Below are positions 27,685-32,759 of a DNA stretch of 64,000 nt, piece by piece (position 1 is the stretch's first letter; each line of letters begins with the position of its first letter). The notes under the pieces were generated by a model that had not been told where the DNA came from, searched no databases, and saw nothing but the letters and a program-made list of their open reading frames with translations. The stretch comes from Bacteroidota bacterium (lineage in GTDB: Bacteria > Bacteroidota > Rhodothermia > Balneolales > HLUCCA01). The translations under genes were made by a program, and so were the position numbers. Location of the stretch: contig JAFIEZ010000007.1 of NCBI GenBank assembly GCA_020832235.1, forward strand, positions 1-64,000. The letters run 5' to 3'.

Positions 27685-28938
27685 CTACTCTGGCTTCACC
27701 AACCATTGCCCGTTAATCATCACACCTGTGGTACTGGTTAAATACTCAAACGGGTCCCCGTCGAACAATGCAATATCAGCGTCTTTGCCCCGCTCGAGCG
27801 ATCCAACCCGACTATCAATGCCCAAAATACGTGCTGAACCGATGGTGATGGCTTCGAGTCCGGCCAGAAATGGGAGTCCGTTCGCAACGGCAATGGCCGC
27901 CTCGTAATGCACAACGCGTGTTTTAGGCACATAGCCTTCGAAACCCGCCTGAAACGCAAAGGGGATGCCGGCTTCGTGAAGCTTGGCGGCGGTGTCCCAG
28001 CTGGCATTCACGGTCTCGCCTGTAGTTCTCACCATGGGCGGATGTATAAACACGTGCACGCCCGCCGCTTTGATCTGATCTAAAACCAGGTACGCCTCCG
28101 CAGCTCCGTCCAGCACCAGGTCGAATCCGAATTCTTCCTGCAATCGCAGCGCCGCTAAGATCTCGGTGGTTTGCTGGGCCGTGATCATGGCTCTGATTTC
28201 GCGATTCAGTATGGCCATCATGGTTTCCATTTTCAGGTCGCGGGCAGGCATCTTGGAGAGATCTCCGTCCGCCGCATCTACCCGTCGCTTGTACTCCTGA
28301 GCTTTGATGAACTCCGCGCGCAGCATGGCAATGGTGCGTGAGCGGGACCCGACTTGTGTGTAATTCCGCCCAACCGAGGGACCTAACGTAAAGGCGACCA
28401 TGGTCACCGAGTCGATGAGGGCTTCGTTGATGGTGCCTCCGGTGGTTTTCACAATCATGGTCTGTCCACTGGCAATCGCTCCCGGACCATGACCGGTATG
28501 GATGGTGGTAATACCCATATTGCTCACAAACACAACGAGATGCTCCCGGGCATTGTAGGCGTCAATGGCGCGTAGGTCCGGCTGAAAGGGATGCGAGCGC
28601 TCCAGCTGATCTTGGTCGTGCGGTACGTTGAGCGCTCCGGAGAGTCCGACCACAGAATGGGCATCGATGAATCCTGGTGTAACGACCTTCGCCTGAACCA
28701 CCTCAACGCCTGAAGGAATACGCACTCTGGCGGCGGTTCCAACCTGCTCAATGCGTCCGTCCCGCACCAGAACCACACCGTTGGTGATCGGATTTCCCGC
28801 CATCGTGTACACGATTTCACCCTGTATGGCGTAGGTTTGTGCTTGTACTTTATTTTGTAAAGTAATCAAGAGGAGGAGGGTTAGAAAGACTGTTCCCATA
28901 CCTAACGAAAACCGGCCAGCATGGGTATTTCCAGTCAT
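27685..28938 (-). CDS. Secreted amidohydrolase-like protein lacking the metal ligands
   Basis: With the start at 28938 the protein has 417 residues and a signal segment (LGMGTVFLTLLLLITLQNKVQAQ). The fold is amidohydrolase: the N-terminal sandwich (GNPITNGVVLVRDGRIEQVG) and the entry strand TPGFIDAHSVVGL. But the HxH is HSV, and where its neighbour has FHTHRHDD, LHHVSEAW and HTDDG this one has TAQQTTE, LDGAAEAY and QAGFEG. Catalysis is therefore unlikely. It lies downstream of, and probably in one operon with, the active-looking 29061-30362 gene. It may be a regulatory or binding partner, or a degenerate copy. Confidence 0.75.
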   Translation of the reverse strand: MTGNTHAGRFSLGMGTVFLTLLLLITLQNKVQAQTYAIQGEIVYTMAGNPITNGVVLVRDGRIEQVGTAARVRIPSGVEVVQAKVVTPGFIDAHSVVGLSGALNVPHDQDQLERSHPFQPDLRAIDAYNAREHLVVFVSNMGITTIHTGHGPGAIASGQTMIVKTTGGTINEALIDSVTMVAFTLGPSVGRNYTQVGSRSRTIAMLRAEFIKAQEYKRRVDAADGDLSKMPARDLKMETMMAILNREIRAMITAQQTTEILAALRLQEEFGFDLVLDGAAEAYLVLDQIKAAGVHVFIHPPMVRTTGETVNASWDTAAKLHEAGIPFAFQAGFEGYVPKTRVVHYEAAIAVANGLPFLAGLEAITIGSARILGIDSRVGSLERGKDADIALFDGDPFEYLTSTTGVMINGQWLVKPE

Positions 28939-29060
28939 GCTATTGCCACGACTAAAGCGCAAGAATGCGCCATTTTTCAAAGGCTTCGCGTTTGTCCATT
29001 CGGCAAATCCCGCAGCACGTATATCCAGTATCATATTCAATAATTTCATAGGGATGTTCC

Positions 29061-30362
29061 TTAGTTTGAGTCGGTGCTGTAGTGATCAAAAAACTCGCCG
29101 CGGAAGACTTCCCATCCTCCGGTGTTGAAAACACGCTGTGCAGGCACCGAGCGGTCATACACCTTGATTCCTTCAATCCAGGTCTGCTCCACAAAGGTGT
29201 ACACACTAAACGGATCCCCGCTGAGGATAATCAGATCGCCATCTTTGCCCACTTCCAGCGAACCCACACGGTCTTCCATGTCCATCATGCGGGCGCCGGC
29301 CAGGGTGAGTCCTTCCAGGGCCTTCTCGCGCGACATCCCTACGCGTACCGCCTGCGCCGCCATGCGCAAGAACAGACGTGAGTCGGTCACACCGTCATCT
29401 GTGTGAAAGGCCACATCCGCCCCGGCCTGCTCCAGTGCCCTGCCGCTGATGGGAAGCAGGTTCATGGCTTCCAGCTTTCCGCCGGGAGAATCGATCAAAA
29501 TGATGGAGCTTCCCACTCCGGCCGCAGCGATTTCATCGGCTACTTTCCAGGCTTCGCTCACGTGATGCAGTACCACCCGAAACCCGAATTCCTCGCGCAA
29601 TCGCAGCACAGTGAGGATGTCGTCGTGGCGATGGGTGTGAAAATGAACCAGTCTCGTTCCCTCCAGAACCTCCACCATGGCCTCGAGCTGCAGATTACGC
29701 GCCGGCATCTTATCGATATCGCCATCCGCCTGCTCAATCTGCCGCTGATAATGCTGGGCCCGCACGAACAAGTCGCGCATCATGGCTGCACTGCGCGCCC
29801 GGGTGCCCGGAAACGGCGCTCCACGCAGGGAGTTGGTTCCGTTGGCCATCTTGATGCCGCCAATCATGCCGTTGGTGATGTCGGGATTCACGAGCATGTC
29901 GTAAATGGTGTTGGCATGACGGAGTTTCAGGTACACGGTCTGACCGCTGAGGAGGTGTCCGCTTCCGGGCATGACGTTTACCGTTGTTACCCCGCCTGTG
30001 CGTGCCTTCCGGAAGGTGTCGCTGTTCACGTCAATGGCATCTACAATGCGCACGTCAGGATGCAGGGCCGAGGTAGCATCGCCGCCATCACCGCCACCGA
30101 TATGAGAGTGGGTGTCGACGAGTCCGGGCATGATGACTTTCCCGCTGGCGTCTACACGCTCGGCGTTGGACGGGATGCGGGTAGTGGCGTCGCCCACGGC
30201 GGTGATTACACCATTGTGCACAATAACGACGCCGTTTTCAATGGGAGGGGAGCTGATGGGATACACCGTTGCGCCGGTGAAGGCCACGGGACGATCCTGC
30301 GCCGTGAGCACCGAGGTGCCCGCCAGCAACAGCGCCAGTAGGAGACTAAGATTTCTGATCAT
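29061..30362 (-). CDS. Secreted amidohydrolase (imidazolonepropionase-like)
   Basis: 433 residues from the ATG at 30362, with a signal peptide (SLLLALLLAGTSVLTAQ). The metal-site pattern is intact: HxH in MPGLVDTHSHIGGG, then VHFHTHRHDDIL, VVLHHVSEAWK and the final Asp in FHTDDGVTDS. The C-terminal strand (GSLEVGKDGDLIILSGDPFSVYT) completes the fold. These enzymes hydrolyse C-N bonds in cyclic amides or peptides outside the cell; the substrate is unknown. It is cotranscribed with the degenerate paralogue (122 bp apart). The S9 peptidase gene upstream (30501-32759) points the same way, so a peptide-scavenging role is plausible. Confidence 0.85.
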   Translation of the reverse strand: MIRNLSLLLALLLAGTSVLTAQDRPVAFTGATVYPISSPPIENGVVIVHNGVITAVGDATTRIPSNAERVDASGKVIMPGLVDTHSHIGGGDGGDATSALHPDVRIVDAIDVNSDTFRKARTGGVTTVNVMPGSGHLLSGQTVYLKLRHANTIYDMLVNPDITNGMIGGIKMANGTNSLRGAPFPGTRARSAAMMRDLFVRAQHYQRQIEQADGDIDKMPARNLQLEAMVEVLEGTRLVHFHTHRHDDILTVLRLREEFGFRVVLHHVSEAWKVADEIAAAGVGSSIILIDSPGGKLEAMNLLPISGRALEQAGADVAFHTDDGVTDSRLFLRMAAQAVRVGMSREKALEGLTLAGARMMDMEDRVGSLEVGKDGDLIILSGDPFSVYTFVEQTWIEGIKVYDRSVPAQRVFNTGGWEVFRGEFFDHYSTDSN

Positions 30363-30500: not shown

Positions 30501-32759
30501 TTACCGTTCACTGCCTACATAACGCTCAAAATACTCGTAAATCCGCAGGATTCTATCCATACGCTGCAGCGGTTCCCCAGTGCGTGACATATCATGGGCA
30601 GCACGCGGATAACGCACGTATTCAACGGGTTGCTCGCGGATTTTCAATGCTTTGTACAGCATTTCGCTTTGGATGACGCCCGTGCGAAGATCCACATCCC
30701 CGTGTTTGATGAGCAGCGGTGTACGCATCTGGTCCACATAGGTCATGGGGGAGTTCGCCCGCAAGACGGAATCGATTTCAGCCGACTCCCACGGGAAACC
30801 ACCAAAGTGACTCGGAATCAGTCGCCAGGCGTTGCCCTCGCCCAAAAACGTGTGCAAATCGTACACTCCGCGCTGGGCAAAGGCGGCCTTGAACCGATGG
30901 TCGTGGCCTATGATAAACGCTGTGAGATAACCGGCATACGATCCACCGGTGACAACCAGTCGATCGGAATCGACCCACTCCAGCACCGTGGCCACATCCG
31001 TAGCCGCGAGTACGTCCCGCTTCGGACCAAACCCCCAGTCGCGGTTATTCCCAAATTGAAAATCGCGCCCATATCCGCCCGATCCGCGGGGATTGCTATA
31101 CACCACCCCATAACCACGGGCGGCGAAGTACTGAAATTCAAACCACATCGAGGCCTCGCCCGGTCCCCACATGGCCGAGGGACCGCCATGAATCTGCAGC
31201 ATCAGCGGATAGGTTTTTCCGGCTTCACGCACTGTAGGTTCCATGATCCAGTATTCAATCTCGAAACCATCAACGGCAACCACACCCCGCTCCGGTCGAC
31301 TAATATGCTTGCCTTCCAGCCAGCTTGCATTGAAATCGGTGATTCTCGTGGGATTCCTCATGCCTTGCATAGCTGTGAGGTTACGCCTTGGCGCCAGCTG
31401 AGCGGTATATAACTCGAAAGGATTCTCAATCGTTGTGAGCACATAGGCCACCCGATCGCCGTGCAGGTCAAAGCTTCGAATACCTTCGGTAAAGCCGGTT
31501 AATTGCTGTACAACAGCCGAACTGCCTCCAACCGATCCACGGTACAGTACCGTACCTCCGTTGCTGTTTCCGGTGAAATACACAAATTGACTGTCGCCTG
31601 ACCAGGTAACACCGCTCATCGACCGGTCGAGGGGCTGGGAAAGTGCCCGGAAATCACTTTTGTCAGTACGCACTACTGAAATCATGGTCTGAGCGTAGCT
31701 CGGGTCGTTGATATCAGACTGACTGAACGCAACCCAACGCCCATCCGGGGAAACCACGGGATTAAAAATGCTGTAGTTTTCAACATCCAGAAACAGCTCT
31801 GGTTCACGGCTTCCATCGGTTGCAACACGATACAGCCGGCTCTTGAATAGCCGGTCGGGATGGGTTTCGCCATCGGCGGAACTATGCAGATACACATACC
31901 GTCCGTCGCGGCTCCAGCTACCACCGCCCCAACTCATGTAGCCTGCTGTTAACGCCGTGGCTTCAGCCGGCTCTTCGGGAAGGCGGTTTACATTTACATC
32001 CACCACATAACGGTGGGAAAAGCTCAGGTTTGGCTGCAAATCCGTCTCCCCCTGAAAATTCAATCGGGTTAAAACGCGGGGATTTCGGTCGGATTCGTTG
32101 CGATCCAACCAGGCCCGGATTTCTGCGAGGTTTCCGTCCGGATTCGGGGTCACATCCCCATGATTACGCGATGCCAATGTGCGACCATCTTGCTCGGTCG
32201 ACCATGAAGGTCCTGCGCTGAACGCATCCGTTTCCAGTAAATCCTGCATGCTCATGGAGGAGGAAAACAGGAGGCGGCTCCCGTCCGGACTCCACAGCGA
32301 ACTCGTCGCACCGTTCGCATGGTTTGTAATAGGTTGGGGCTCGCCTCCATCCAGCGAAAGCAACATAATCTGCGAGCGACCGTCGATAGATCGGGTAAAG
32401 GCTATGTGTCGTCCGGCGGGATGCCAGGCGGGTTGAGAAGCATTCGCCCGGTCGCTGGTCAGTGCCCGTGCCGGAGCGCTTCCATCGGCCGGAACCAGCC
32501 AAATGCGGTTACGATAAGCGTAGGGCTGTTGACGATCGTCCTGCTCCATAATCGCGTTAACCGTAAATAGAATAAACCGACCGTCGGGTGAGTACTGTAC
32601 ACTGCCCAGCTGTTGTAATTGAAGCAGGTCGGTCAGTTGAATCAAGGAATCATCATCACCGATGGAAGCCAGCGCTGATGCCGGCTGAAATGTGAGTAAA
32701 GCGCAGGTAATACCCGCTAGCAGGAGCAGCTTAGGCCCCCTGCTTGTCCAGTTGAGCAT
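30501..32759 (-). CDS. S9-family (prolyl oligopeptidase-type) secreted peptidase
   Basis: 752 residues. A signal peptide (LLLLAGITCALLTFQPASALA) precedes a PD40/WD40-like beta-propeller (repeats such as SPDGRFILFTVN, SPDGSRLLFSS, SPDGRWVAFSQ). The C-terminal alpha/beta-hydrolase domain follows. Catalytic residues: Ser607 in TGGSYAGYL, Asp690 in KHGDVDLRTG and His722 in RAAHDMSR. Dipeptidyl- or acylaminoacyl-peptidase activity is expected, but the exact specificity cannot be read. It is upstream of the two amidohydrolases in the same direction, likely part of one nutrient-scavenging cluster. Confidence 0.88.
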   Translation of the reverse strand: MLNWTSRGPKLLLLAGITCALLTFQPASALASIGDDDSLIQLTDLLQLQQLGSVQYSPDGRFILFTVNAIMEQDDRQQPYAYRNRIWLVPADGSAPARALTSDRANASQPAWHPAGRHIAFTRSIDGRSQIMLLSLDGGEPQPITNHANGATSSLWSPDGSRLLFSSSMSMQDLLETDAFSAGPSWSTEQDGRTLASRNHGDVTPNPDGNLAEIRAWLDRNESDRNPRVLTRLNFQGETDLQPNLSFSHRYVVDVNVNRLPEEPAEATALTAGYMSWGGGSWSRDGRYVYLHSSADGETHPDRLFKSRLYRVATDGSREPELFLDVENYSIFNPVVSPDGRWVAFSQSDINDPSYAQTMISVVRTDKSDFRALSQPLDRSMSGVTWSGDSQFVYFTGNSNGGTVLYRGSVGGSSAVVQQLTGFTEGIRSFDLHGDRVAYVLTTIENPFELYTAQLAPRRNLTAMQGMRNPTRITDFNASWLEGKHISRPERGVVAVDGFEIEYWIMEPTVREAGKTYPLMLQIHGGPSAMWGPGEASMWFEFQYFAARGYGVVYSNPRGSGGYGRDFQFGNNRDWGFGPKRDVLAATDVATVLEWVDSDRLVVTGGSYAGYLTAFIIGHDHRFKAAFAQRGVYDLHTFLGEGNAWRLIPSHFGGFPWESAEIDSVLRANSPMTYVDQMRTPLLIKHGDVDLRTGVIQSEMLYKALKIREQPVEYVRYPRAAHDMSRTGEPLQRMDRILRIYEYFERYVGSER

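Follow-up and report, generated by a model that had tools for sequence, protein, structure and literature searches.

Heteromers of an enzyme and a pseudoenzyme are known from several systems. The Aib hydroxylase AibH1H2 is a heterotetramer of two amidohydrolase-superfamily chains that are 28% identical, of which one is catalytic and the other is called non-catalytic (PMC7782822; PMC12141560). AibH1 still binds one Zn, with a ligand set that is partly different, and the complex is a monooxygenase (PMC7782822). An inactive chain homologous to dihydroorotase occurs in the aspartate transcarbamoylase of Pseudomonas aeruginosa, where it is needed for activity of the complex (PMC7053772).

The genes considered here, A and B, lie side by side in a stretch of 64,000 nucleotides of DNA (the window, by which the whole stretch that was analysed is meant) and encode two paralogous amidohydrolases, of which B has an intact metal site and A is without it. 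As in AibH1H2, the two chains are of the amidohydrolase superfamily and one of them is presumed to be non-catalytic. A is without four of the six usual ligands, but the set that AibH1 uses for its one metal is itself partly different. Furthermore, AibH1H2 is a monooxygenase whereas B looks hydrolytic, and the ferredoxin and reductase genes that adjoin AibH1H2 are absent among the three window neighbours that were scanned. In the transcarbamoylase the catalytic partner of the inactive chain is a transcarbamoylase, whereas here the partner, B, is itself an amidohydrolase. Neither of these two systems was found to be of the same family as A/B, and a search of the literature (CC-licensed PMC papers) found no description of such an amidohydrolase pair among the matches listed. 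The tRNA deaminase ADAT2/ADAT3 likewise contains a subunit that is catalytically inactive, as is proposed here for A/B. ADAT2 and ADAT3 are paralogues, with a fold and a substrate other than those of A and B. A/B would best be explained as an enzyme/pseudoenzyme heteromer, comparable with AibH1H2.

Gene pair, family and neighbourhood

The original prediction, made from the sequence of the window, was that two adjacent and co-oriented genes encode secreted amidohydrolases, one with an intact metal site and one in which the fold is conserved without it. Both genes are present at the place indicated (Table 1), with A directly downstream of B on the minus strand. Since the spacer between them is short and contains GGAA, A and B are probably co-transcribed. 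The two proteins share 35% identity across 391 aa (E 3e-61, a value for a single pairwise comparison), and both score above the cut-off of 25 for Pfam Amidohydro_1 (A 44.8 bits, B 57.1 bits), which is matched via their C-terminal stretches. The nearest solved chain found with phmmer is for both proteins 3ooq, an amidohydrolase of Thermotoga maritima MSB8 (B, E 3.5e-57; A, E 1.3e-41); no paper naming this structure was found in a literature search (CC-licensed PMC papers). A specific function is not assignable because every NCBIfam match listed (for B, 25 of 54 matches) is far under its cut-off. Records with annotation call such genes simply 'amidohydrolase'. A hydrophobic N-terminal leader is recognizable by eye on both A and B, that of A possibly starting at codon 38 or codon 51, and on these grounds the two proteins are presumed to be secreted. 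Of the records that carry a name, those of Bacteroidetes bacterium HLUCCA01 and Balneolales are nearest, and in a genome of the same genus as the window genome (G001) the orthologues are 82% (A) and 85% (B) identical.

Table 1 Features of the A/B gene pair in the window
Feature	Position	Strand	Size or codons	Remarks
B, intact, presumably secreted amidohydrolase, presumed catalytic subunit	29061-30362	(-)	433 aa	
Metal ligands of B, by alignment				H85, H87, K171, H242, H267, D322
Spacer, B stop to first A ATG	29050-29060	(-)	11 nt	contains GGAA
A, metal-less paralogue, presumed non-catalytic subunit	27685-29049	(-)	454 aa	counted from first ATG
DAHSVVG of A	28645-28665	(-)	codons 129-135	second His lost (B: DTHSHIG); coordinates from codon numbers
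QAGFEGYVPK loop of A	27922-27951	(-)	codons 367-376; E371, Y373, V374, P375 and K376 invariant in 107 orthologues	coordinates from codon numbers

The three window neighbours that were scanned encode an S9 peptidase, an AAA/DUF4143 protein and an LEA_2 protein. The gene for the first, which is prolyl oligopeptidase-like (30501-32759, minus strand), is the next gene upstream of the pair and shares its strand. Antisense to B there is a 312-aa open frame (29403-30341, plus strand), which the coding strand probably brings about as a by-product. Flanking genes were compared over 69 loci of at least 7 kb, which are redundant between collections and whose flanking open frames are in part antisense. 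No flanking family is common to more than 9 of the 69 loci, and the window neighbours, including the S9 peptidase, are absent from the 14 flank clusters listed. Assignment of a function via gene neighbours was ruled out, the largest flank cluster being drawn from only 9/69 loci; the pair itself therefore seems to be the unit.

The metal site in B and its counterpart in A

The six ligands of B, comprising HxH, Lys, His, His and Asp, are what we take to be the two-metal site of the amidohydrolase superfamily, in which K171 would, by its place, be the bridging Lys. The motifs HSV, TAQQTTE, LDGAAEAY and QAGFEG that had been pointed out in A indeed stand at the places matching the motifs of B (A/B: DAHSVVG/DTHSHIG, TAQQTTE/HFHTHR, LDGAAEAY/LHHVSEAW and QAGFEG/FHTDD), and where B has its HTDD loop at strand 8, A has the QAGFEGYVPK loop.

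Site residues were counted in 107 distinct orthologues of A and 111 of B, a chimeric gene (L158, see below) being excluded from the B counts. The first His is present in all 111 B proteins and in 60 A proteins, among them the one from the window, and is replaced by Arg in the 47 others. At the second His, B has His 110 times and Asn once, and A has Val (84) or Thr (23) and in 0/107 cases His. The strand-4 Lys is likewise invariant in B (111) and missing from all 107 A proteins, which carry Thr (99), Ser (7) or Cys (1) instead. For the strand-5 His, found in 111 B proteins, A has mostly Thr (92), with His in three and various residues in others, and the strand-6 His, again present in 111 B proteins, is replaced in A by Gly (97) or Ser (10), with His in 0/107. 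The strand-8 Asp of the 111 B proteins corresponds to Glu in all 107 A proteins, a match that is unsure because of a two-residue insertion. Because the 111 B orthologues retain all six ligands, save for one Asn, the ligand loss in A exceeds what chance would give.

The claim of an intact HxH/His/Asp set in one copy thus holds for B and its orthologues, with the same single Asn as exception. The claim that the other copy lacks all metal ligands went too far: the A protein of the window has lost four ligands (second His, strand-4 Lys, strand-5 His, strand-6 His), but the first His is kept and an invariant Glu aligns, if unsurely, with the Asp. The loss of the strand-4 Lys comes in addition to the ligands that had been listed.

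In the residue-conservation alignment of A, from which rows shorter than 370 aa and rows with identical residues 81-280 were excluded, E371, Y373, V374, P375, K376, R378, R341, M339 and E383 have a conservation of 1.00. The entropy of columns at most two positions from the ligand sites averages 0.86 bits, as compared to 1.30 bits for shifted controls, with 6 of 380 shifts equally low and 374 higher. When the distance was set to 0, 2, 4 or 6 positions, 21, 6, 15 and 46 of the 380 shifts, respectively, were equally low; conservation of the pocket is local. Because the entropy near the ligand sites is lower than in 374/380 shifts, the old pocket of A is not drifting. Conserved residues, among them an invariant E.YVPK loop, have taken the place of its lost ligands.

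Co-occurrence, fusions and related systems

Among 296 sampled genomes of the phylum (completeness at least 90%; cut-offs E 1e-70 for A and E 1e-85 for B), A was found in 67 and B in 68, the sole difference being a genome in which the contig ends within B (G046). In 65 of the 296 genomes the two genes are adjacent and co-oriented, B preceding A; in G250 each gene lies near base 1 of a contig of its own, and in G222 the searches for A and for B both match one chimeric gene. At the thresholds used, A without B was found in none of the 296 genomes. A set of 59 nearer genomes, including the window's own, has 42 members with both A and B, sometimes on different contigs (G045), and none with a full A without B; in one of the 59 (G023), A is broken into two frames and a B orthologue is absent. 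This A remnant (L182, contig C25 of G023, 125-1056) lies on a contig without B, and joint loss is possible. When loci with a match to A or B are counted instead, which are redundant between collections, 148 of 153 hold both, and of the remaining five, four are truncated where a contig ends and the fifth is the chimera; loci L001-L008 were excluded from all pair counts. The pair is also present in records named Planctomycetota, Akkermansiaceae, Thermoanaerobaculia and Salinivenus. Conservation of such pairs in other genomes, which had been suggested as a check, is thus borne out by the 65/296 genomes and 148/153 loci, and the degenerate copy accompanies B in the relatives with one contig end and one chimera as exceptions. 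Genes of one operon can be gained or lost jointly even without contact between their products.

For 12 genome pairs, the dN/dS of A was 0.023-0.125 (11 finite values, one saturated) and that of B 0.024-0.120; where dS exceeds 1, as it does in several cases, the ratios are rough. By these values both genes are under strong purifying selection, the lack of which in the degenerate copy had been named as a refuting result. Concerning the features by which a pseudoenzyme is recognized, A has retained the fold, lost the catalytic residues and remained under purifying selection.

Natural fusions of the two proteins were encountered in the phylum of G325, from which the Planctomycetia record L054 comes. 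The 195 genomes drawn from this phylum have 44 places that match B (E <=4e-98), eight of which were read. Five (L184-L188) have frames of 851-948 aa with an intact B part first and an A part behind it, and three (L189, L192, L193) have B and A as separate genes. The N halves of the five fusions have the intact site, and the C halves are without the four ligands that the window A protein lacks as well (second His, Lys, strand-5 His, strand-6 His), with E.YVPK retained in all. In a quick tree the C halves cluster with A (SH-aLRT 100) and the N halves with B (99). The chimeric gene of G222 (L158, contig C1, 4429-5775) is a natural chimera of a tandem pair, B-like to about residue 280, counted on the frame as printed, and A-like beyond.

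Structure prediction of the pair, another suggested check, was carried out on relatives as one chain. For L065, the closest relative of the window pair, B and A were joined by reading the intervening stop as Gln, and AlphaFold2 gave a model (105 alignment rows) with pLDDT 88.8 and pTM 0.86, most of the linker being below 50 pLDDT. The natural fusion L184 (89 alignment rows) gave pLDDT 92.6 and pTM 0.93, which, with halves of about 400 residues each, implies that AlphaFold2 is confident of their relative placement. It may be that AlphaFold2 places homologous barrels against each other in the way of a homodimer. The amidohydrolase fold, a barrel with a small composite beta domain, is present in both halves of the L065 model. 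In a comparison with PDB structures, confined to those that Foldseek had already listed, the A half shares its fold with 3ooq (Z 52.5, 1.8 Å, 376 residues aligned), in agreement with the proposal of a fold conserved without its site, and the B half matches amidohydrolases such as 4dyk (Z 26.4). Unlike A, the 3ooq chain is intact, with HxH, His, His and Asp present in the alignment.

A second, distant amidohydrolase system is present on contig C18 of the same genome (L009, 11126-15638), where a 1005-aa protein composed of a degenerate domain D and an intact domain E is followed by a 500-aa degenerate protein C. Of 21 loci of this type drawn from the matches listed, two of which (L166 and L167) belong to one genome, 11 have D fused to E, nine have the two as separate neighbours and one is cut by a contig end. 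Domain E retains four His and the Asp in 21/21 loci, the four His are absent from C in 21/21, and D is without the strand-5 and strand-6 His in 20/20, with HSH retained in two. Near this system, a 1058-aa frame (L009, 5-3181) is amidohydrolase-like in its last third, which is preceded by a long stretch resembling beta-propeller repeats. On a Qipengyuania plasmid (L196, 1623-6623), a peptide MFS transporter, an intact and a degenerate amidohydrolase and an FKBP-type isomerase are encoded in a row. Two relatives from Bacillota (Cytobacillus and Acetoanaerobium) have an intact site, and for Cytobacillus a second amidohydrolase was not found among the neighbouring genes listed; the Acetoanaerobium record is unannotated at this place.

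The quick trees carry SH-aLRT values only and are rooted for drawing only. MAFFT drew the first part of 19 of the 47 A rows of A2 into the B half, for which reason A3 has 16 of these in shortened form and omits three. In the smaller quick tree, which is unrooted, one branch (98) splits 21 intact from 23 metal-less rows. This fits one old duplication; shared loss of site residues may also draw rows together. The D group needs two changes in the first quick tree and one in the smaller tree.

A proposed non-catalytic subunit in a heteromeric amidohydrolase

We consider it probable that A is a working non-catalytic subunit of a heteromeric secreted amidohydrolase in which B would be the catalytic chain. 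The homology, the loss of the site, the co-occurrence, the selection and the natural fusion are observed; that there is a complex is suggested by fusions and structure prediction. The natural fusions, the fused second system and the confident predicted packing together point to A as a stoichiometric partner, and in this respect they favour the original idea of a non-catalytic partner of the intact enzyme. The task of A may be binding, which had been given as an example, or else structural, gating or of another sort. A homo-oligomeric ancestor may have given rise to a heteromer in which one copy lost catalysis, retained its interface and had its pocket rebuilt. The chemistry would be performed by B at its two-metal site (HxH, Lys, His, His, Asp), and A, with its whole barrel retained, would pack on B like a second copy of B in a homo-oligomer and stabilise or shape it. 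With its pocket (DGxxE, Q[SA]G[FYW]E.YVPK), which is rewritten and conserved, A probably takes part in holding or admitting substrate. A peptide-like amide, hydrolysed by B outside the cytoplasm, can be envisaged as the substrate because of the superfamily, the leaders and the peptide transporter near the second type, the latter on one plasmid.

Some observations do not sit easily with such a heteromer. Conservation over the whole protein is slightly lower in A than in B (column entropy averages 1.30 and 1.15 bits, respectively), G222 has swapped the pair for a B/A chimera, and G023 has a broken A with no B orthologue. It is unlikely that A has a function of its own, with a pocket for binding substrate or product or with a metal-free active site, and is co-expressed with B without forming a stable complex. 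Such a function would suit a pocket that has not decayed randomly, as indicated by the comparison with shifted controls and by the invariance of E371, Y373, K376, R378, R341 and E383, but the natural one-chain fusions and the confident packing of the halves speak against it, as does the fact that A was never found without B among the 296 genomes. Quite unlikely, in our opinion, is a composite site in which the conserved loop of A enters the active site of B and neither chain works alone. The strict conservation of the strand-8 loop of A (E371 in 107/107, YVPK at 1.00) and the retention of E.YVPK in five out of five fusions agree with it, whereas the Cytobacillus relative has an intact site with a second amidohydrolase absent among its listed neighbours.

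That A is a decaying duplicate heading for loss can hardly be maintained, even though its metal ligands are lost and both the remnant in G023 and the chimera in G222 exist. Its dN/dS is about as low as that of B, it is spread across several phyla and it has acquired new invariant residues; in view of the low dN/dS and these residues this explanation was rejected.

Returning to A as a non-catalytic subunit of B, it is tempting, but tentative and somewhat short of an even chance in our estimate, to regard the A/B pairs as part of a broad, undescribed class in which one intact barrel is combined with one or two metal-less barrels, encoded by separate genes or in one chain, that stem from one old duplication, the dead barrel having been rebuilt into a conserved substrate-handling pocket. 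If the pairs are single enzymes, B expressed alone, as in a screen, may be inactive or unstable. The solitary, paired, fused and three-part forms outline a possible path, within one family, from a homo-oligomer to an enzyme with dead subunits, which could be tested with a few soluble proteins of environmental bacteria.
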